Translations under genes and position numbers: made by a program
Source: Acidobacteriaceae bacterium KBS 83
GTDB taxonomy: Bacteria; Acidobacteriota; Terriglobia; Terriglobales; Acidobacteriaceae
NCBI GenBank assembly: GCA_000381585.1
Contig: KB906739.1
Location: forward strand, 124,001 to 188,000
Direction of reading: 5' to 3'
Length of the DNA: 64,000 bases
Shown here: positions 5,422 through 58,508 of the stretch, in pieces
Numbering within the stretch: the stretch's first letter is position 1
Layout of the letters: each line of letters opens with the position of its first letter
The notes under the pieces: model-generated
Told to the model about the DNA's origin: nothing
Seen by the model: only the letters and a program-made list of their open reading frames with translations
Database searches by the model: none

Positions 5422-6327
5422 TTAGCTCCGAGTAATCTCAAATATTACTCCCCCGCTGTCGTCCCCATTCGAGAAACCCCGTGCTATCGCGATCACGATC
5501 AGAGTTGCTCCCAGAATCACGGTCCAATCGGGTCGAGTTGACATCAACAGAATAGATTCCGCAGTTGCCACAAGCGGCTGCGTCCACTGCAACATGCTCG
5601 CGCGACCGGCTCCTGATTTACTTAAGAACCAGTAAAAAAGAAGGTAACCGCACACGGTTGTAAAGGCAGCGCTGATGGCAAAACCGATCGCGGCCGCTGC
5701 CGACCAAATGACCGTTTCATGTTCGAGCAGCCGTGAGGCAACAAATAGGATCAGGGCGGACACAGTACATTGCCCAAACAAAGCTTCAATTATGGATATC
5801 GTTGGTAAATGCCTTTCGGCACCGGCTAGCGCCCATGCCAGCACTCCCGCAGCCGCGAGGGGAGGCAAGATCCACAATGATTGCCGAATGGAGATGTCGA
5901 GGTCGCGGTCAAGAAGAAAAAGTATGCCGGCCAGTCCGCCGACGGCAGTGCTGATCGCCAGCCGCCCGCTGACCGCGAGGAAAGTTGGCACCGTTGCCAA
6001 CACGGCAACGAAGATCGTCGGCGATAGCCTATCTTTACTGAAAAATATCAGCAACTGCGGGAGGCACAGAATGCCTATTCCGACAATGACCGCATTGACA
6101 ATGCCAAAAAGTGGCCTGCGCCAGAAACGTCGATGTATCGCCCATGGCAAAAGGACGGCTGCACTGATCCCGTACTGAATGGCGAGCGAGAGAAGTGGCG
6201 GTTGGGAAGGACCGGAGGCTCTCAGGACCCAACTGGAACCCCATAGCAGCGACAGGACCAGGAAGCCAGCCAACGGCAGATAGCGCATACGGTAAAGGCT
6301 ACGCCGATGGCGTAGCCCCTCCTCCAC
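5422..6327 (-). CDS. EamA (DMT superfamily) permease
   Basis: The 301-residue integral membrane protein has about ten hydrophobic segments in two EamA repeats. The first begins LAGFLVLSLLWGSSWVLRAS, where LLWGSSW is the usual first-helix signature. Substrates of such drug/metabolite transporters vary and cannot be read from sequence. The frame opens with GTG at 6327, but the stretch before the ATG at 6288 overlaps a perfect hairpin at 6297-6317 that looks like the pnp terminator, so the shorter start is plausible. It lies 33 bases downstream of pnp on the same strand. Confidence 0.85.
   Translation of the reverse strand: MEEGLRHRRSLYRMRYLPLAGFLVLSLLWGSSWVLRASGPSQPPLLSLAIQYGISAAVLLPWAIHRRFWRRPLFGIVNAVIVGIGILCLPQLLIFFSKDRLSPTIFVAVLATVPTFLAVSGRLAISTAVGGLAGILFLLDRDLDISIRQSLWILPPLAAAGVLAWALAGAERHLPTISIIEALFGQCTVSALILFVASRLLEHETVIWSAAAAIGFAISAAFTTVCGYLLFYWFLSKSGAGRASMLQWTQPLVATAESILLMSTRPDWTVILGATLIVIAIARGFSNGDDSGGVIFEITRS
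6297..6317 (-). terminator. Hairpin after pnp, possible terminator
   Basis: A perfect 9-bp stem, GGCTACGCC and GGCGTAGCC with a 3-base loop, is followed on the minus strand by TTTACCG. It lies 44 bases past the pnp stop. The T run is only three bases, and the hairpin overlaps the longest possible EamA reading frame, so it could also be a processing or attenuation element. Confidence 0.5.
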
Positions 6328-6360
6328 AACTACAGAGAACCTGCCGAGATCAGACGCTGC

Positions 6361-8778
6361 TTAGCGGCGACCGCCTCCAGTACCTGGTCCGCGGCCGGGA
6401 CGACCCCGGCGACGGCGACGCCGATTCGCATCGCCAGAACCGCCTCCGTTGCGTGCAGCGCCTGCCGGAACCGGGGCATCATCCGCACGATTGAAGTTAG
6501 GTTCGTTCTCCTCGTCGGTCGCCTCATCGGATTCCTCGAAGTCGTCTCCACCTTCGATCATGATCGTGCTTGCGTTCGAAGAAGGCTGGCGGTCCGAAAG
6601 GGGCTGCCGGTCTGGACGCTCCTGGCGGGGCGGCCGCGGTGCTGGTTCGCTTCCTCCGTCACCACCGGGCTCTGGCAGTCCAAGCTTCTGCCGCTGCTCC
6701 TTCAGGAGTGCCTTTCGGGAGAGCTTGATACGATTGCCCTCGATGCCGAGGACCTTCACCATCACCTGATCGCCCTCACGCAGTTCGTCCTTCACATCCT
6801 TCACGCGATGCTCGGCGATCTCGCTGATGTGCAGCAAGCCATCCGTGCCCGGGAAGAGTTCTACAAAGGCACCGAACTCCGCCAGCCGGACCACCTTGCC
6901 CAAATAGGTCTTCCCTACTTCGGGCACCGCCGTCAGGTCGTTGATCATGCCCAGCGCCTTGGTCAAGCCGACTTCGTCGCTGGAAGCCACGTTCACGCGA
7001 CCTGTATCGTCGACGTCGATCTTCACGCCCGTCGCCTCGATGATGCCGCGAATAACCTTGCCGCCCGGTCCGATCAGATCGCGGATCTTGTCGGTAGGAA
7101 TCTGCAATGTGTGAATGCGAGGAGCAAACTTCGAACGTGTCTCGCGTGCGCCCTCAAGTTCAGCATCCATCTTGTCCAGCAGAAATAGCCGGCCATGCCG
7201 CGCCTGCTCAAGCGCCTCGCGCATGATCTGGCCCGTGATGCCGCTAATCTTGATGTCCATCTGCAGAGCGGTAATGCCCTTGCGCGTGCCCGCCACCTTG
7301 AAGTCCATATCCCCGTAGTGGTCTTCCGCACCCGCAATGTCAGTCAGAACCGCATACTGCTCGCCTTCCTTCACCAGCCCCATCGCCACACCAGCGACGG
7401 CGCCCCGGAGTGTAACTCCTGCATCCATCAGTGCAAGGCTTGCACCGCAAACTGTAGCCATGGAAGAGGAGCCGTTCGACTCCAGAATGTCGGAGACGAT
7501 GCGGAAGGTATATGGTGACTCCTCCGCCGCCGGGAGGACCGCAGAGATCGCACGCTCAGCCAGAGCGCCGTGGCCCACTTCGCGACGCCCGACACCGGTC
7601 ATGCGTCCGGTTTCGCCAACTGAGAATGGTGGGAAGTTGTAGTGCAACATCAGGCGCTTCTTCTGCTCGCCTTCGTAGGTCTCCAGCCGCTGCTGGTCAT
7701 CGGTGGTGCCGAGTGTGACGGTGACTAGCGCTTGTGTCTCCCCACGAGTGAAGAGCGCTGAACCATGGGTGCGGGGCAATACACTGGTTTCGATCGTGAT
7801 CTGCCGAATTTCGTCAAACGAGCGGCGATCCGGGCGTATCCTCTGCTGCAACACCTGTTCACGGAAGATGCGCTCGCGCAGCGCTTCATAGTACTTGCCG
7901 AGCTTTTTCTTCGCCTCTGGCTGGTCGGCCGGCAACTCCTTCGCCAGGTCGTCCTTGATCGCCTTAACCAAGGCATAGCTTTCGGCCTTGGGATGCGCCT
8001 TGGTGTCGAGCGCGTCCTTGAGGCGTTCTCCAATCTTCGCCTCAAGCTCCGATGCATACGCGTGATCAATCTCAACTTCCTGCACCGCGCGCTTCGGCTT
8101 ACCGGACTTAGCCACCAGATCTTCAATCGCCGCGACAATCTTCTTGATCTCGCCGTGACCGAAGTCGATCGCGTCGACCACCACCTCTTCACTTACTTCC
8201 TTCGATCCGCTCTCGACCATCACGATGCCATCTTTCGTACCGACGACCATGATGTTCAAAGTGCTCTCGTGACGCTCCGCATATGTAGGATTGATCACGA
8301 ACTGATCGTTCACGCGGCCAACGCGAACTGCGCCAACCGGACCGCTGAATGGGATATCTGAAAGTGCGAGCGCAGCGCCCGCGCCATTGATTGCGATGAC
8401 GTCCGGGTCATTCTCCTTATCCGCCGACAGAACGAATGCGATGACCTGCGTTTCATTCCTGAATGCCTCAGGAAAAAGCGGCCGAATGGGGCGATCGATC
8501 TGACGCGAGGTCAGAATCTCTTTCTCGCTTGGCCGTCCCTCTCGCTTGATGAAGCCACCGGGAATGCGTCCCCCCGCATAGGTGTACTCGCGATAATCAA
8601 CGGTGAGAGGGAAAAAATCGATGCCTTCGCGTGGTTCCGGAGAAGCCACAGCCGTGACAAGCACGACGCTGTCTCCTTGCGATACCAGGGCGGCGCCGGG
8701 CGCCTGTTTGGCCATGCGGCCAGTTTCAAAGGTCAGTCGCTTGCCGCCGGCAAGCTCAACAGATACTTCTTGTTTCAT
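6361..8778 (-). CDS. pnp: Polynucleotide phosphorylase (polyribonucleotide nucleotidyltransferase)
   Basis: PNPase degrades RNA phosphorolytically from the 3' end in the degradosome. In order there are two RNase PH domains separated by an alpha-helical domain; the second contains GRREVGHGALAERA and KISGITGQIMREALEQA. A KH domain (IPTDKIRDLIGPGGKVIRGI) and an S1 domain (GKVVRLAEFGAFVELFPGTD) follow. The last ~100 residues are an unusual extension, acidic first and then a basic Arg/Gly tail ending in a run of Arg and Gly, probably disordered and RNA-binding. The ATG at 8778 is preferred because GAGGA lies 5 bases upstream; an in-frame extension to 8835 lacks similarity. It follows rpsO as in many bacteria. 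Confidence 0.97.
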   Translation of the reverse strand: MKQEVSVELAGGKRLTFETGRMAKQAPGAALVSQGDSVVLVTAVASPEPREGIDFFPLTVDYREYTYAGGRIPGGFIKREGRPSEKEILTSRQIDRPIRPLFPEAFRNETQVIAFVLSADKENDPDVIAINGAGAALALSDIPFSGPVGAVRVGRVNDQFVINPTYAERHESTLNIMVVGTKDGIVMVESGSKEVSEEVVVDAIDFGHGEIKKIVAAIEDLVAKSGKPKRAVQEVEIDHAYASELEAKIGERLKDALDTKAHPKAESYALVKAIKDDLAKELPADQPEAKKKLGKYYEALRERIFREQVLQQRIRPDRRSFDEIRQITIETSVLPRTHGSALFTRGETQALVTVTLGTTDDQQRLETYEGEQKKRLMLHYNFPPFSVGETGRMTGVGRREVGHGALAERAISAVLPAAEESPYTFRIVSDILESNGSSSMATVCGASLALMDAGVTLRGAVAGVAMGLVKEGEQYAVLTDIAGAEDHYGDMDFKVAGTRKGITALQMDIKISGITGQIMREALEQARHGRLFLLDKMDAELEGARETRSKFAPRIHTLQIPTDKIRDLIGPGGKVIRGIIEATGVKIDVDDTGRVNVASSDEVGLTKALGMINDLTAVPEVGKTYLGKVVRLAEFGAFVELFPGTDGLLHISEIAEHRVKDVKDELREGDQVMVKVLGIEGNRIKLSRKALLKEQRQKLGLPEPGGDGGSEPAPRPPRQERPDRQPLSDRQPSSNASTIMIEGGDDFEESDEATDEENEPNFNRADDAPVPAGAARNGGGSGDANRRRRRRGRPGRGPGTGGGRR

Positions 8779-50932: not shown

Positions 50933-52285
50933 TCAGTGGCCGGAAGGCTGATGACTGAGCCGTTCCATCAGAACTGCATTTCGCTTGCCCTGGGACAGTA
51001 GAGAGTCCAGGAAGATGGTTTCCCCTTCTGCGTGGGAGCCTTTGCCCAGAGCGCCAACCCCGACCAACCCAGGTATGTACGACGCGACAAAGGAGATGTC
51101 GCCCGCGCCGCGCGTCATCGGGCCGCCTTCCGTGACAGGACCCAGACCAAGCGCCTCACTGGCATCGCTCCACTGGCGCAGCAATTCCCTACCCGCCGGC
51201 GTCACCGCCATCGCGGGATAGCTCTCGATGAAGCTGATCTTCGCATCGGTCTTCGGCAGATGCTGGGCGACAATCGCGCGCATTTTGTCCTGGGCTCGAA
51301 CCGTCTGCTCATTGCTCACCGTACGCAGGTCGCCGTACGCAATTGCTGTCGGCGGAATCACGTTATCCTTGCCCGTAGCGTCTCCGCCGGTCTGATCGGC
51401 GTTCATCTTCGCGGTGGACCCGCCCAGAACCAGACCGACGTTGTAGGTAAGGCCGTCCTCCGGCAGTTGTGTGCGGAACGCGTCGAGAATGCGCGTGAGT
51501 TCGTAGATCGCTCCATAGCCGAATTGATTGCTGAATATTTGTGACGAGTGGCCGGAAAGCCCGGTGGCCTCGATGTGCCACATGGTGGAGCTTCGGCGGG
51601 CGATGCTGATGGTGTCCTGCCCATCGGCGCGGAGACTGGGCTCGAATTCCAGTGCGACATCACTCTCCTTGGCCGCCTCAATGAGATCGTGCCGCGCCTT
51701 CTCCAACGGATCTCCGGCGCGTTCTTCGTCTCCGCTCAGCACAATCTGTATTTCCGCAGTATTCAGCGCGCCCGCCTGCTTCATTGCGTTGAGTGCAGAG
51801 AGCATGATGACAAGGCCACCCTTCATGTCGGCGACGCCAGGGCCGGTCGCGGCCTTCCCTGCCGAGTCCAAGGGCGCGTAATGCTGGAAGGTACTCGACG
51901 GCTCAAAGACGGTGTCCATGTGACCGATCAGCAGAAGCCGCTTGCCGCAATGCCCTGTGCCCGATGGACACGGATGCTCGGCGACCAGATCGCCCGCGCG
52001 CCCGGTCACCGCTTCCATCGGCACCCAGCGCACATGAAAACCCAGGGTCCGCAAACGCGGAGCGAGGACGTCCTTCACCGCAACAACCCCCGGCAGATGC
52101 ATCGTGCCGCTGTTGATGTTGACAAGTTGTTCGAGCAGCGCGCGATCGGCAGCACCGTTGGCATCAATTGTCGTCGCCATTCGCGACTCCTGCGGAGTGA
52201 GCGCAGCGGTATTGGCCTGGTTCTGGGCGAAAGATACGGCTGCAGCGCCAATTGCGAAAAGAATCGCGGTTTTCAGGAACCTCAT
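50933..52285 (-). CDS. Secreted M20-family metallopeptidase
   Basis: 450 residues from the ATG at 52285, with a signal peptide (FLKTAILFAIGAAAVSFAQ). Zinc-site motifs are GHMDTV, GPGVADMKGG and SGDEERAGDP, and the dimerisation domain follows near ATGLSGHSSQIF. It resembles glutamate carboxypeptidase/acetylornithine-deacetylase-type enzymes and would act in the periplasm; substrate unknown. A GTG/TTG-type extension to 52309 lacks support. Confidence 0.9.
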   Translation of the reverse strand: MRFLKTAILFAIGAAAVSFAQNQANTAALTPQESRMATTIDANGAADRALLEQLVNINSGTMHLPGVVAVKDVLAPRLRTLGFHVRWVPMEAVTGRAGDLVAEHPCPSGTGHCGKRLLLIGHMDTVFEPSSTFQHYAPLDSAGKAATGPGVADMKGGLVIMLSALNAMKQAGALNTAEIQIVLSGDEERAGDPLEKARHDLIEAAKESDVALEFEPSLRADGQDTISIARRSSTMWHIEATGLSGHSSQIFSNQFGYGAIYELTRILDAFRTQLPEDGLTYNVGLVLGGSTAKMNADQTGGDATGKDNVIPPTAIAYGDLRTVSNEQTVRAQDKMRAIVAQHLPKTDAKISFIESYPAMAVTPAGRELLRQWSDASEALGLGPVTEGGPMTRGAGDISFVASYIPGLVGVGALGKGSHAEGETIFLDSLLSQGKRNAVLMERLSHQPSGH

Positions 52286-52437
52286 CGATGAACGCACCGA
52301 GAGCAGCATACTTGATCCGGGTACTCCGTCTGAGGTAACGCCCGGCGGCTGGCAATTGCTCTCTCCGCTCCATACAATGGTGATAGACAGAGACGGCGGG
52401 TAGTAACGCCGAAGTCGAGAGATAACAAGGAGCAGGC

Positions 52438-52884: not shown

Positions 52885-54828
52885 TCAGGAGCCCGGCGTC
52901 GAGCCGGGCTTTTCTGTTGCTACGCCGTCCTCGCGGAGCATATCGGGATCGTATTGCGCGAGGAAGCTGCCTGCGGCAATACCGCGTGTGAGCGCCAGAT
53001 GCCAGGCATCGCTCACCCGCGAGGTGTGGTAGCCGGTCTCAGGCCACGTGTCGAGCAGTGAGCGTAGCCGCGTCGTATCCAGAACGTGACGAACCAGCGG
53101 TGAGCGTTCGATGCGTGTGAGTTCTGCGGAAAGCTGCGGACGCGCAGCCCCGACGGTCAGGTACCAGTCGGCCGCCTGCAGACCGCGCATTGTTCGCCGC
53201 AACGTCGATTCAGGAAGCCGGCCTTCCATGGCACGGCGAATAATCGAGCGGCTTTGGCCGCCCACCAGATATTGCTCGATCGGGATGCCGAAGCAGAACT
53301 CGAAGATGCGCTTGTCGAGCGTCGGGTCCCGCTGCTCGATCTGCCATCCGGCTGCGGCAGCCCCATTGTTCACCCCAGGATCGAAGTATTCATAGAAGCT
53401 GCGGCGTACAGAGGCAACGCTGCTCTCCACTCCATAAAACTCGGCGAGCGCTTTTTCTTCCAGCCGGTATTTGGCCGCAAGCTGCGGATGTACGGCGCTG
53501 AAAGTGAGTGTGAACCCGCGCATATCCGGATGGTAGAGGCGGCGCATCCACTGCGGCACGATCCAACCGGTGGCCCAAGATGCCGCGCCCCGCCATGACG
53601 TGTAGCCGCCAGCGCGCAACTCGTGTGTCAGGCGCACAAGCCGGATCCAGTGCCCGCGGCGAAAGAGCTCCGACAGGCCGATAAGGCCGCCGAAGCTGAT
53701 GGTCGCATTCCCGCCTGCTCCCTGCAGCAGCACATCGAGCCCACGGCTTCGTAAGCCGTCCAGAATGGCAATTACCCAGAGGAGGTTAGTGGGATTGAAG
53801 GTAGGCTGACCGGTGAGCCGTGCGTCACGCTCCGCGGTGGCGAGCAGATCGCGGCCGCTCGCGGTCACCCGCACGTGATCGATGTTCGGATAGAGCCCGG
53901 CAACCTCTGCCGCCAAGGGCCCTTCGTCGCCAAATCGGCCGGGCAGCGCAGAACCGTCATAGCCCTGGACTGGCACTGCGGTGAAGGAAGTGAGCCGCTG
54001 GCCCTTGGCCGCCATCAGTCGTGCAGCAGTGACTGTTACCGATGAGCTGTCCAGCCCGCCGCTCAATTGCGATGCAATGCCTTCGCTTCCGGCGAGCCGC
54101 ACTCCGACGGCACGATCGAAGCGTTCGCGAAAGTCGTCAATGTAGTCAGCGTCACGGCGGTAACGGATCGGGCGAGCATCGATCGGATGCCAGTATCGGC
54201 GTATCTCAATGCCATTTGGCGACAGCTTGAGCCAATGGGCTGGGGGCAGCCGCTCGACTCCTGCGAAGAACGTCTCCGTACTCGGCGTCTGCAATGCGGC
54301 AAGGAAATGCGCCATGCGCCCCACATCGATACGGTGACCAACCGACGGCAGCGCACACAATCCTGGGGGCATGGAGGCGAAGGCAAACGCGCCGTTCGGT
54401 CCGTGCGCACGGGTGAAATGCAGGGGGCGTTCTCCTGCGTGATCGCGCGCGAGAAAGAGAGTCTGCCGATGCGCATTCCAGCAGGCCAGAGCAAAACCGC
54501 CCATCAGGTGATCGACGACGTCGAAGCCCCATCGCGCCCAGGCGTGCGCGAATACCTCGTCGTCCGAAGCTATCTGCCCAAGTCCAAGCTCGCGCGCCAG
54601 ATCGTCGTGGTTGTCGATCCGCAGATCCGCGACAAATTCCGGGGAACCCGGAAAGGGTGCGGACGACGGCAAAGCTGGAGACGGACGATAGTCGCTGGAG
54701 CCAAGAAGCAGCCCTTGAGCCGATTGCCGGATCGCGGCCGGCAAGGGCGACATCGCGCGCAGCATGGACAGACAGCTTTCTGGAGGAAGCGGACCGCTCG
54801 AAGACCACAGGCCCGCGATGGCGCGCAT
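52885..54828 (-). CDS. Lasso peptide macrolactam synthetase (asparagine-synthetase-like, C protein)
   Basis: 647 residues from the ATG at 54828 (GGAG four bases upstream; the frame is open to 54855). The N-terminal class II glutamine amidotransferase-like domain (MRAIAGLWSS; RIDNHDDLAR) lacks the nucleophilic Cys at position 2. The C-terminal half is the ATP-pyrophosphatase domain with IASQLSGGLDSSSVTVTAAR (PPi loop, 256-263). Lasso cyclases of this family adenylate an Asp/Glu side chain of the core peptide and form the isopeptide ring. Neighbouring A, K, B1 and B2 genes establish the role. It ends within a terminator hairpin shared with the bacilliredoxin gene. Confidence 0.93.
   Translation of the reverse strand: MRAIAGLWSSSGPLPPESCLSMLRAMSPLPAAIRQSAQGLLLGSSDYRPSPALPSSAPFPGSPEFVADLRIDNHDDLARELGLGQIASDDEVFAHAWARWGFDVVDHLMGGFALACWNAHRQTLFLARDHAGERPLHFTRAHGPNGAFAFASMPPGLCALPSVGHRIDVGRMAHFLAALQTPSTETFFAGVERLPPAHWLKLSPNGIEIRRYWHPIDARPIRYRRDADYIDDFRERFDRAVGVRLAGSEGIASQLSGGLDSSSVTVTAARLMAAKGQRLTSFTAVPVQGYDGSALPGRFGDEGPLAAEVAGLYPNIDHVRVTASGRDLLATAERDARLTGQPTFNPTNLLWVIAILDGLRSRGLDVLLQGAGGNATISFGGLIGLSELFRRGHWIRLVRLTHELRAGGYTSWRGAASWATGWIVPQWMRRLYHPDMRGFTLTFSAVHPQLAAKYRLEEKALAEFYGVESSVASVRRSFYEYFDPGVNNGAAAAGWQIEQRDPTLDKRIFEFCFGIPIEQYLVGGQSRSIIRRAMEGRLPESTLRRTMRGLQAADWYLTVGAARPQLSAELTRIERSPLVRHVLDTTRLRSLLDTWPETGYHTSRVSDAWHLALTRGIAAGSFLAQYDPDMLREDGVATEKPGSTPGS
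52891..52915 (+). terminator. Terminator of the bacilliredoxin gene, inside the lasso cyclase 3' end
   Basis: GCCCGGC and GCCGGGC (7 bp) with a 5-base loop, then TTTTCT. It lies 24 bases after the bacilliredoxin stop and encodes the last residues of the convergent cyclase gene on the other strand. Confidence 0.75.
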
Positions 54829-54975
54829 TCGGCTCCGAAACTGGGCAGGCATCAAGCTATATGCGTGTTCCGGTCAAATCGCGAGGTGAACCTGCTGCCC
54901 GGAATAGAGACTGAGAAGATTCCTTTGTGTTGCCTTGGGTTGAAATCAACGAACGAACGAGGTAGAAGCGCAGGC

Positions 54976-55137
54976 TCAAGCAGATTTGTGCGAGTTGAGT
55001 CCATCATGCACGTGGCTCATGCCATGCTCCGCATCCTCGAGCGCCAGAATGTCGAGCACTGGCTTCTTCCACTCCCGTTTTTGCGGGACAGTGGCCGATG
55101 CCGGATGTTGGGCATTCATAGTGGGGGCGTTCGTCAT
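54976..55137 (-). CDS. Lasso peptide precursor (A)
   Basis: 53 residues from the ATG at 55137, with GGAGG four bases upstream. The leader contains EWKKPVLDIL, which matches the conserved aromatic-xx-Pro-x-Leu recognition motif bound by B1 proteins. After it come ALEDAEH and a likely core GMSHVHDGLNSHKSA. The only acidic residue after Glu37 is Asp45, so the ring must close there: Gly39-Asp45 would be a 7-residue ring, His38-Asp45 an 8-residue ring. The usual Thr at position -2 is not seen. The kinase suggests modification near the C-terminus, where Ser52 is the penultimate residue. The frame is open upstream to 55263 but lacks leader features. Identity as precursor rests on position and leader motif. 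Confidence 0.82.
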   Translation of the reverse strand: MTNAPTMNAQHPASATVPQKREWKKPVLDILALEDAEHGMSHVHDGLNSHKSA

Positions 55138-55511
55138 CCATCCTCCGAATGAAACACAGCTGCAAGCTGAATCGGTGCTCGTAGCGGCCTTTGGTCCAAC
55201 TACTGCTATTTGGAAGGTACGATGCAGAAATTCGTCCGCATTCGTTGCCTTAAAGCCGTTCATCCCTCTTTACTACTCGAACAAGGCAGCAGAACAGAGG
55301 CCCGATGCAAATCAAACGCTGCGCCTACACCATTGTCGAGGCAATACAAGGAACCGTCAATTCCATATTGTGTGAAACTCACGGCTGAGTAATATCTACC
55401 GTTACGCAGTCTTCTACTGCTGCAGATACTTGAAATGAAGACAGATGTCCTTGCATCCCCATCCGCTCCGATGACCTTGACCAGTATGCGCACAGCCTTC
55501 AGTGCAGGGGA
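55138..55511. other. 374-base intergenic region between lasso A and K genes
   Basis: This separates the minus-strand A-C genes from the plus-strand kinase gene and should hold their divergent promoters. The segment is noticeably A/T-richer than the flanking genes. No convincing promoter, second precursor or RNA was recognised. Open frames here are short and lack ribosome-binding sites. Confidence 0.4.
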
Positions 55512-56450
55512 ATGCACCTTCCGGGGTATGGAGGAGGCACGCCCCTGAACAGCTATCGCATCGGACCGTTCGTCTACGTAACTGACCTGTTACTGCCTGA
55601 GTTGCCGCCGGGGGCACCGGAGGCCGGCGAGCGGCCGGTCCATATTCGTTTGGGAAAGGCACCGGCGGCATTGCGTGCTCCCTTGGCGACCGCCAAAACT
55701 TTTCAAGCAAGTGACACTGAATTTCTTCTCCGCCTGCCTGGAGTGGCGACCTATTTTGTCCGCGATGGCGTGCATATTCTCGTGGATCGGGAGACTGGCG
55801 CCGCCGATCTAGACGTGCGGTCCTACCTCATGGGAAGCCTCTTCGCCGTCCTTTGCCATCAGCGGGGGCTGCTTCCATTGCATGCAAGCGCAATTGCCGG
55901 GCCGCAGGGCGCCGTCGCGTTCCTAGGCGCATCTGGTGCCGGCAAATCATCCATCGCCGCGTTTCTGTCGCGGCGCGGCCACCGCGTCCTGGCCGACGAT
56001 ATTTGTCTCGTCGATCCCGCCGCTCCCCGCGATCAGCGCGTGCTGCCGGTGGCGCCGTGGCTGAAACTATGGAGTACAACCCTGGATGCGATGGGCGAAT
56101 CGAACCGCGAACTCCCGCGCGTCTTCTCCGACGATGAAAAGTACCGCTATTCGCTCCAGCAGCACGAAGCGTCCACCCCACTCGCGGAAATCATTCTGCT
56201 CGAGCGCGCCGAGGACCAAGCTGCGGCAAGCTTCGAGCGGCTGGCGCCGGTCCATGCCCTCCACGCCGTGCTTGACCTCACGTACCAGTCGTGGCTGGTG
56301 CGCGCTATGGGTCGAACCGAACAGTATTTTCTGCGCTGCGGGAAAGCTCTCGATGGCGTTCGCGTGACGCGCATGCGGCGGCCATGGAGTTTTGATGCGA
56401 TGGAAAATACTCTATTGGTGCTCGAAGCGCATCTCGCGGAAAACTCGTGA
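55512..56450 (+). CDS. Lasso peptide kinase, HPr-kinase-like (K)
   Basis: 312 residues. The C-terminal half is the HPr kinase/phosphorylase fold: LPLHASAIAG (residues 122-130), Walker A GASGAGKSS (139-147) and ADDICLVD (161-168). The rest is a variable N-terminal region. In lasso clusters of the paeninodin type such kinases phosphorylate the C-terminal Ser of the precursor. It runs toward the nucleotidyltransferase-B2 gene and ends 5 bases from it. The start at 55512 has GGGG upstream but no strong ribosome-binding site. Confidence 0.88.
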   Translation: MHLPGYGGGTPLNSYRIGPFVYVTDLLLPELPPGAPEAGERPVHIRLGKAPAALRAPLATAKTFQASDTEFLLRLPGVATYFVRDGVHILVDRETGAADLDVRSYLMGSLFAVLCHQRGLLPLHASAIAGPQGAVAFLGASGAGKSSIAAFLSRRGHRVLADDICLVDPAAPRDQRVLPVAPWLKLWSTTLDAMGESNRELPRVFSDDEKYRYSLQQHEASTPLAEIILLERAEDQAAASFERLAPVHALHAVLDLTYQSWLVRAMGRTEQYFLRCGKALDGVRVTRMRRPWSFDAMENTLLVLEAHLAENS

Positions 56451-56455
56451 GGCAG

Positions 56456-58138
56456 CTAGGACTGCTCCCCCGTCGAACCCGCAGAGTGAATCGGCGCAAA
56501 GAGCAGTGCACTCTCACCACCGAGCAGCATGCGATGGTCGACTTCCAGCCAGGTATGCGCGCGCATCTTGCGATCCGCAGAACGGCGCACACCATAGTGC
56601 ATGATGCTGCTGATGCCGCGCCGGCGCAGCATGGCATGTGCTGCTAGCGCCTGCGGGAAGCACACAAACGAGATTGGTCCAAAGCGCGCAATGCTGAGCA
56701 CCGCCCAGCGAATGCGCTCCGCCATATCGGAGTTTGCCGATTCGGCGGCGTTGTGCAGTGGACGCTCAAGCCAGCGAAAGATCCATCGCACCGGCAGAAG
56801 CGCGAGGGAGCAACGCGCCGTAAGCAGCATCACGAAAGCCTCGAGCAGCAGCCGCTTCTTCGTCGCAGGCAGGGCACGCCAGCGGTCCCAGCGGCTGCGC
56901 CGGGCGTGTGTCGCCCCCACCTGTGCCGCCCTGCGATGGAAGAACGCCCACTCCACGGGACTGAGCACCGCGTAAAACGGAAACAGAAAATCCGGCAAAT
57001 CGAAGCGTTGCCACACACGTGGTCGCAGCAGAACACGCCGCAATATCTCAATGCGATAAGCAAAGCCCCGGCGCAAACCGAGCTCATAACGCTTCAGCGG
57101 CCAGCTTCCGGTTCCCTCCTGCGTTGGCTCAAACCGCTGCGCGAGATGCTGCGCTCGCGCATGCTGGAGTATCCACCGTGCCTCGCGTCTTCCGCTCTCG
57201 AGCTGCATCGCACTGTCGAGTACATCCGGCCTCAGCAACTCAAGCTCCTCTGCAAGCTTAAGCGCCGCAGCCAACTCAGGGAGAATGCCATACGTCACCG
57301 CCTCATCGGCGAGAGCATTTCTTTGCTCACTTCGAAAGCTGTCCCACAACACAGCTATATCTATGAGCGATTTGAATCGGGACCATCCCTCGAGCGCCCC
57401 ATGCACGCAGAGATAGAGGACGGTGCGATCGAGCGGCAGGACTGTCACCGCAGTCTCGCCCAGTTGCATTCGCTCGTTCGATGCTGAGCTCGCATCGGCC
57501 AGTGCGTTACCGGGCATGCGCGGATTGCGAAAGAGGCGCCAATGGAGATCGACTTCGAAGTCATTGTCGCCATTGGCGCGATACGTGTAGTCCTTACCGT
57601 GTTTGCGCCAGGACCGCCGGCGTCGCGGTGTGAGCCGGGCGTCTGGATCGTTGCGGCGGAAGCCGTCGGCAAGCAGAATGCGGTCGGCCACCTCCTCCAT
57701 GCCGGGCTCTATCAGCAGATCAATATCGCCCACGTCGCGCAGGGCAGGATCACCATAAACACGCTGCGACAGCGGAACTCCCTTCAGCACTCGGACAGTG
57801 ACTCCCGCCTGCTGCAGCAGGCCGCAGAGACGACGCGTCTCAGCGAGATAAGCAAAAGTGCTTATCGCGTTCTGTGTGGCTGCTCTCTTCAAAGTGCCAA
57901 TCGTGTCGGCCGGAAGTGTCGCACCGCTTGATGAAAGTGCACGAAAGACAAGCGGTGCAACACGATGATGGCCACAGAGCGAAAGGAAGTATTTCCAATC
58001 GATCTGCTCCTCGGCGGCAAACGTACGAACGGCCAGCCCGTCCTCCTTCACTAACGGCCAGCGCATACATCTCAGCAGCAGGCGCACCTCTGGCGTCAGA
58101 CGGCTGGGAGCGAAGACAGATTGAACGTTCTCGGCCAT
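56456..58138 (-). CDS. Fusion of a nucleotidyltransferase (NTP_transf_5) and a lasso B2 leader peptidase
   Basis: 560 residues from the ATG at 58138. Residues about 10-290 are an NTP_transf_5-type nucleotidyltransferase (VRVLKGVPLSQRVYGDPALR, DVGDIDLLIEP). Residues about 430-560 are a transglutaminase-like B2 domain with Cys493 (SFVCFPQALAAHAMLRRRGI), His528 (MRAHTWLEVD) and Asp534. B2 removes the lasso leader with B1; nucleotidyltransferases in pseudomycoidin-type clusters add sugars to the phosphorylated peptide. The fusion of the two in one chain is notable. Its start is 73 bases from the B1 start on the other strand. Confidence 0.88.
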   Translation of the reverse strand: MAENVQSVFAPSRLTPEVRLLLRCMRWPLVKEDGLAVRTFAAEEQIDWKYFLSLCGHHRVAPLVFRALSSSGATLPADTIGTLKRAATQNAISTFAYLAETRRLCGLLQQAGVTVRVLKGVPLSQRVYGDPALRDVGDIDLLIEPGMEEVADRILLADGFRRNDPDARLTPRRRRSWRKHGKDYTYRANGDNDFEVDLHWRLFRNPRMPGNALADASSASNERMQLGETAVTVLPLDRTVLYLCVHGALEGWSRFKSLIDIAVLWDSFRSEQRNALADEAVTYGILPELAAALKLAEELELLRPDVLDSAMQLESGRREARWILQHARAQHLAQRFEPTQEGTGSWPLKRYELGLRRGFAYRIEILRRVLLRPRVWQRFDLPDFLFPFYAVLSPVEWAFFHRRAAQVGATHARRSRWDRWRALPATKKRLLLEAFVMLLTARCSLALLPVRWIFRWLERPLHNAAESANSDMAERIRWAVLSIARFGPISFVCFPQALAAHAMLRRRGISSIMHYGVRRSADRKMRAHTWLEVDHRMLLGGESALLFAPIHSAGSTGEQS

Positions 58139-58211
58139 GAGCGAGGAAGTGTCAGTATCATATGCGAGGCGCCTGATTGTGGAACCACCAGGCCGGAGGA
58201 CAGCTTCGTTT

Positions 58212-58508
58212 ATGTCACGCGAGATTCCCATCACGGCGGAGAGCATCGTCGCCTGGAGCGAGGCGCCGGTTGCGACCGAAGTGGATCGCGAGGTTGTCCT
58301 GATGAGCGTCGGCCGAGGCCGCTGTTATGGACTCGGCGAAACGGGCAGTTCGGTCTGGCGACGACTGGGCTCGCCGATCCGCGTGGATGACCTGTGCCGC
58401 GAGCTCATGCTGGAATACCACGCCGATCTTGACGTACTCGTCAAAGACGTCATCGTCCTGCTGGAGCAGATGCAGCAGGAAGGACTGGTCAAGGTAATTG
58501 CGGAATGA
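58212..58508 (+). CDS. Lasso leader-binding protein, PqqD-like (B1)
   Basis: 98 residues from the ATG at 58212; the frame is open to 58137 but then overlaps the divergent gene. The PqqD winged-helix (RiPP recognition element) pattern is seen in VDREVVLMSVGRGRCYGLGE, TGSSVWRRLGSPIRVDDLCR and VKDVIVLLEQMQQEGLVKVI. B1 binds the Pro-containing leader motif and presents the precursor to B2 and C. GGAGG lies 12 bases before the ATG, rather far. Confidence 0.88.
   Translation: MSREIPITAESIVAWSEAPVATEVDREVVLMSVGRGRCYGLGETGSSVWRRLGSPIRVDDLCRELMLEYHADLDVLVKDVIVLLEQMQQEGLVKVIAE

Follow-up and report, generated by a model that had tools for sequence, protein, structure and literature searches.

The DNA analysed here, a 64,000 nucleotide stretch referred to as the window, lies on a 441 kb contig of a 6.25 Mb genome. 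Its host is a soil-type acidobacterium with a lasso-peptide locus: a search of open reading frames (ORFs) with Pfam and NCBIfam profiles located a five-gene lasso set, termed C, A, K, N-B2 and B1, at window positions 52885-58508. The strand order is C(-) A(-), K(+), N-B2(-), B1(+), and the set therefore forms four blocks separated by three strand switches (Table 1).

Table 1. Genes, domains and peptide segments of the lasso locus, in window coordinates
Feature	Position	Strand	Remarks
C, lasso cyclase (asparagine-synthetase-like)	52885..54828	-	SGGLDSSS; N-terminus MRAIAGLW without Cys; ORF opens at 54855 (TTG)
A, precursor, 53 aa, MTNAPTMNAQHPASATVPQKREWKKPVLDILALEDAE+HGMSHVHDGLNSHKSA	54976..55137	-	leader motif; homologue in congener; GGAGG 4 nt 5' of ATG
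Leader of A	55027..55137	-	W(-15)xxP(-12)xL(-10), Ala(-2) Glu(-1)
Core HGMSHVHDGLNSHKSA, predicted ring His1-Asp8	54979..55026	-	register alignment
K, HPr-kinase-like peptide kinase	55512..56450	+	LPLHAS / GASGAGKSS / LADD
N-B2, NTP_transf_5 nucleotidyltransferase + B2 leader peptidase	56456..58138	-	ORF opens at 58246
N domain (NTP_transf_5)	57242..58006	-	GDIDLLI DxD, EVDLHW motifs
B2 domain (Transglut_core3)	56489..56803	-	Cys529, His564 (ORF numbering)
B1, PqqD-like leader-recognition protein, 98 aa	58212..58508	+	ORF opens at 58137

Three of the frames open upstream of their probable start codons. The true start of C is probably M10, because its relatives begin with MSAIAG. N-B2 and B1 probably start at M37 and M26, respectively, and we infer that the head-to-head overlap of these two frames vanishes once the starts are shifted to these codons. 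Other B1 frames are 95-108 aa long in 8 of 13 cases, with longer open frames in the remaining five. The whole genome holds a single Transglut_core3 gene and a single PqqD gene above cut-off, both of them within the cluster. Neither Rfam families nor tRNAs were found in the window, where the frequencies of promoter-like sites (2 versus a shuffle mean of 1.6) and terminator-like sites (8 versus 5.6) do not rise above chance. The region between A and K is perhaps regulatory.

A first-pass annotation of this DNA had described a cyclase carrying SGGLDSSS, a small peptide gene with a Pro-containing leader, an HPr-kinase-like protein and a PqqD-like protein, and all four are present. Among NCBIfam models, C scores highest against the lasso cyclase NF033535 (255 bits, under the curated cut-off of 525), compared with 147 for asparagine synthase. 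Precursor A, whose leader carries WxxPxL, scores 14.7 bits against the paeninodin family model NF033524, under the cut-off of 27. K scores 24.2 bits against Hpr_kinase_C, also under the cut-off (33.3), and in the alignment it retains the complete His/Walker-A/Asp-Asp motif. B1 passes the cut-off for PqqD (PF05402, 58.4 bits versus 23.4) and falls below that for NF033536 (59.6 bits versus 80). The annotation had also proposed a B2-type Cys-His-Asp domain joined to an NTP_transf_5 domain. The fusion is real and runs nucleotidyltransferase first, B2 last: the N half scores 171 bits against NTP_transf_5 (PF14907, cut-off 31.2) with DxD in 15 of 15 aligned rows, and the B2 half scores 74 bits against the lasso model NF033537, above the cut-off of 33. 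All 13 aligned B2 rows share Cys529 and His564; the putative catalytic 'Asp' column, in contrast, is not conserved. Against solved structures, N-B2 gave no sequence match at E 0.1, and K and C have remote relatives only. An AlphaFold model of N-B2 made from a two-row alignment was set aside (mean pLDDT 36).

The earlier view of this locus as a lasso cluster in an acidobacterium had been accompanied by a check for grouping of C and B2 with non-lasso families. Both proteins score best against lasso models, and the view stands. Since C, A and B1 all lie under the lasso-specific NCBIfam cut-offs, one might suppose that AsnB-like, PqqD and transglutaminase-like proteins serve a different RiPP here, but this is very improbable given that B2 exceeds its lasso-specific cut-off, that the lasso cyclase is the best model for C and that all 14 precursors share the spacing and a ring acid.

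This precursor set, obtained by searching for the leader pattern near enzyme genes, comprises 13 full acidobacterial sequences and one partial sequence picked out by eye (G443). The pattern demanded Asp/Glu within core positions 6-13, and chance-looking matches were dropped by eye; some of the ring-acid regularity is therefore built into the search. Of the 581 ORFs in the window with a length of 30-110 aa, a single one fits the pattern, which was written after homologues had been seen; this is taken as more than a chance match. When the core is started 15 residues after the leader Trp, every one of the 14 precursors has Asp or Glu at position 7, 8 or 9. A register one later moves the acid to position 6 in G628, and a register one earlier moves it to position 10 in six precursors, such that the His1-Asp8 register is the only one with a ring acid at 7-9 in all 14 acidobacterial sequences. 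The same spacing, with Thr(-2), is found in an unannotated plasmid cluster of Paenibacillus cellulosilyticus (L118) that carries C, K, B1, B2, N and D. Among the acidobacterial precursors, leader position -2 is Ala in 12 of 14, including that of the window, and Thr in two (G249, G481).

Because of the ring acid at 7-9 in all 14 sequences and the matching Paenibacillus spacing, the core boundary is placed at His1, and the core is predicted to be HGMSHVHDGLNSHKSA with a His1-Asp8 ring. His is unusual at core position 1; it is found there also in G510, and the congener has Gly. An alternative is that the core starts at Gly2, which would give a 7-residue Gly-Asp ring and a leader ending in AEH. 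Lasso cores often start with Gly, which occupies this position in the window, the congener, G488, G510, G443 and G742. However, this start would leave a 6-residue ring in G628 and would lose the match both to the Paenibacillus precursor and to the Thr(-2) of G249 and G481, making it improbable.

The congener, G427, is the one same-genus genome compared and is an 85% complete draft. All five genes recur there in an arrangement compatible in order and strand, divided over two contigs by a break in the A-K gap. Identity between the window and G427 is 70-79% for the five genes (A 79%, K 76%, C 75%, N-B2 70%). NG86 dN/dS ratios are 0.26 for A, 0.11 for C, about 0.12 for K, 0.20 for N-B2 and 0.24 for B1, where synonymous change approaches or exceeds one per site in C, K and N-B2, and where the frames of B1 and N-B2 include doubtful first codons. 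Judged from these ratios, all five genes are under purifying selection. By eye, the A-K intergenic stretch (55263-55512) seems to be kept in the congener, with frames at 55260-55517 corresponding to 6170-6418 of its stretch L069.

The congener likewise retains the flanking genes (MacB/FtsX permease, PadR, M20 peptidase, bacilliredoxin, LacI, OMP barrel). Among 34 short stretches, their only match outside the congener is a 45% LacI in L052, and they were rejected as cluster members; we regard the flanks as neighbours because they are not kept in the other lasso loci compared. The M20 peptidase gene (window 50933-52309) adjoins the cluster and is found in the congener and not in the other lasso loci compared. 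For this last reason, an accessory role in which the M20 peptidase trims the final Ala to expose Ser15, conceivable in principle, was rejected.

Among the matches listed, the N-B2 query spans both halves in 4 of 398 family genomes, namely the host itself, G427 (70%), G488 (42%) and G510 (38%); in a phylum sample of 396, both halves are matched in the host genome only, again among the matches listed. Separate N and B2 genes occur approximately 8 kb apart with genes between them in G394 and G470, and as divergent neighbours in G742 and G714. The N gene of G443 reaches a contig end and was scored as neither fused nor split. On trees of N, B2 and C, the history of the fusion takes two to three changes, at least one of which is forced, and a single change is found in 0-4% of bootstrap trees. 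The acidobacterial fusions may descend from one gain with later splits. Fusion of these domains is not new in kind, since several cases in Firmicutes have been reported in a review (PMC8498205). Having the nucleotidyltransferase and the leader peptidase in one chain makes their order and coupling testable on a single protein, for which separately encoded N and B2 proteins of the same family could serve as controls. The chemistry of lasso nucleotidyltransferases is described as unsettled between glycosyl and nucleotidyl transfer, as is their action before versus after threading (PMC8498205).

The locus belongs to a known kind, that of paeninodin, pseudomycoidin and the bsf cluster. In common with the psm and pade clusters of Firmicutes it has A, C, K, B1 and B2, and psm also includes a nucleotidyltransferase (PMC8498205); the W..P leader and the 15-residue spacing seen in the Paenibacillus relative are further likenesses. 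In contrast to psm and pade, the window has a core without a C-terminal Ser, Ala rather than Thr at -2, no ortholog of the D exporter, A and C divergent from K, and a K protein 26% identical to the Paenibacillus kinase. The bsf cluster of Bradymonas sediminis (BsfK, BsfB1, BsfB2, BsfN) resembles the window in combining K with N, in its split B1 and B2, in a core end other than Ser and in a leader -2 residue other than Thr, whereas it has D, Ile(-2), a Y(-17) spacing and separate N and B2 (PMC10368454); K of the window is only 25% identical to BsfK. Seen against this kind as a whole, the departures read from the window are the missing C-terminal core Ser, the lack of a close D match in either congener and Ala(-2). 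Ile, Val or Ala at -2 is predicted for other precursors in the bsf report, which also describes Acidobacteriaceae lasso precursors with Ile/Val(-2), including that of strain TAA 166 (PMC10368454). Three lasso clusters from soil metagenomes (40.1, 482.1 and 44.1) have acidobacterial best matches (PMC9064862). Compared by their published descriptions, these clusters and TAA 166 share the family or phylum of our host and have separate B1, B2 and C; cluster 482.1 is listed with an aminoglycoside-phosphotransferase-type kinase, and the main text of that report does not use the word 'nucleotidyltransferase' (PMC9064862). The first-pass annotation did not recognise the peptide as one already described, and we likewise found no account of this exact peptide in paper searches of an open-licence library; the reports consulted include PMC8498205, PMC9266682, PMC13352647, PMC12670498 and PMC9064862.

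The peptide had further been proposed to be phosphorylated. The kinase motif is intact, but the core lacks the usual acceptor, and phosphorylation is putative. The C-terminal Ser is the site modified by the kinases of paeninodin, ThcoA, SyanA and pseudomycoidin, and in pseudomycoidin K phosphorylates this residue and N adds one or two hexoses (PMC8498205). A terminal Ser is present in nine of the 14 acidobacterial precursors; the others end in KSA (window), KSG (G427), Arg (G470 and G394) and Ala (G732), and a K homologue is present in all five of these genomes. Lacking a C-terminal Ser, the window peptide would therefore carry its phosphate elsewhere, for example on Ser15 or on ring Ser4, which are the only Ser residues common to the window and congener cores. 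Ser15 is most likely the site, with Ser4 next, because the likely acceptor of the relatives is at the tail end.

Modification of ring Ser4 instead of the tail would have a precedent in BsfK, which phosphorylates Ser3 of BsfA, a core ending in Asp (PMC10368454), and Ser4 is an in-ring residue kept in both congeners. We nevertheless consider Ser4 somewhat unlikely: most acidobacterial precursors end in Ser, G510 (HGGNLKFD...TKS) has K without any ring Ser, and K of the window resembles BsfK no more closely than it does the Paenibacillus kinase. The ring Ser of the window core is at position 4, that of BsfA at position 3. Mutagenesis of BsfK is reported to show that most residues of the His/Walker-A/Asp-Asp motif matter and that two glycines do not (PMC10368454). 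The displaced Ser also offers a test of how lasso kinases choose their site.

Taken together, the locus is likely to be a biosynthetic cluster for a class II (disulfide-free) lasso peptide of the kinase/nucleotidyltransferase type. The genes, their motifs, conservation and spacing are observed in the sequence; from the protein families we infer all enzymatic steps, phosphorylation and glycosylation included, as well as their order and the threading. B1 would bind the WxxPxL leader and present precursor A, and K would phosphorylate one core Ser while the leader is still attached. The B2 half of N-B2 would then cleave after Ala(-2)-Glu(-1), and C would activate Asp8 with ATP and close the His1-Asp8 lactam round the threaded tail. 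The N half would add a hexose or a nucleotidyl group to the phosphate, comparable to the presumed role of PsmN in pseudomycoidin. A more specific version, which is at best tentative and rather unlikely, holds that the lasso peptide is phosphorylated and phospho-glycosylated one residue inside its tail end (Ser15 of KSA) or in the His-rich ring, that the nucleotidyltransferase-peptidase fusion couples tagging to release, and that the product leaves by a route other than D or has an intracellular role. The ring segment MSHVHD (HSHVHD in the congener) could bind metal.

When the D exporter of G714 was used as a query, matches of 42-45% (E 2.3e-125 or lower) were found in G488, G510, G443, G470 and G394. 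A close match is absent from the host genome (G000; best 32%, 1.5e-53) and from G427 (best 29%, 9.6e-48), and the best exporter matches in both read as generic ABC proteins. This absence is firmer in G000 (99% complete, 21 contigs) than in G427 (85%). A bsf-like cluster, mmv, has been published as lacking D (PMC10368454). The absence of D in both genomes, the core without a C-terminal Ser and the promoter- and terminator-like sites that do not exceed shuffles might together indicate a decaying cluster with no exported product. Such decay is quite doubtful, however, as the frames are open in both congeners with low dN/dS (0.11-0.26, including the precursor) and the enzyme motifs are intact. Strand switches do not point to decay, given that A and C are divergent from K in other genera too.

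Of the 14 acidobacterial genomes with a precursor, 13 yielded a K homologue, all but the draft G443, and lasso B2 above cut-off is found in 88 of 300 family genomes. Loss of A, B1 or B2 in relatives was an earlier concern. All 10 genomes tested have PqqD genes above cut-off, some of them on other contigs; B2 above cut-off was not found in the drafts G443 (83% complete) and G732 (90%), both of which have A, C, N and PqqD, and these cases may be draft gaps. Elsewhere, the only trace of C in G742 is a fragment of 41 residues at the edge of a contig, C is split over two frames in G628, and a close C was not found in G249. Missing genes mean little in these relatives because several of them are fragmented drafts. 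N is not a lasso marker by itself, since it also occurs away from lasso genes (without another clear cluster gene in 9 of 26 stretches compared). A Priestia plasmid nucleotidyltransferase locus (L119), whose annotation names no lasso genes, and L063 of G744, with B2 and no other clear cluster gene, were set aside.

The layout of the relatives varies. In G394 and G470 (L053, L052), a B2-K-A-C-D group is separated by about 8 kb from B1 and N, and by eye the genes in the gap resemble an AI-2E-type transporter and PLP enzymes. In G488, G510 and G443 (L106, L107, L108), B1 is divergent from D on a contig apart from that of C-A-K-NB2. Finally, directly upstream of an Asn-synthase cyclase in G514 (L120:3614-6022) is a gene for an 802-aa protein in which Peptidase_S9_N and Peptidase_S9 domains are followed by a C-terminal Transglut_core3 (B2) domain, and which perhaps joins an isopeptidase-like enzyme to a leader peptidase.
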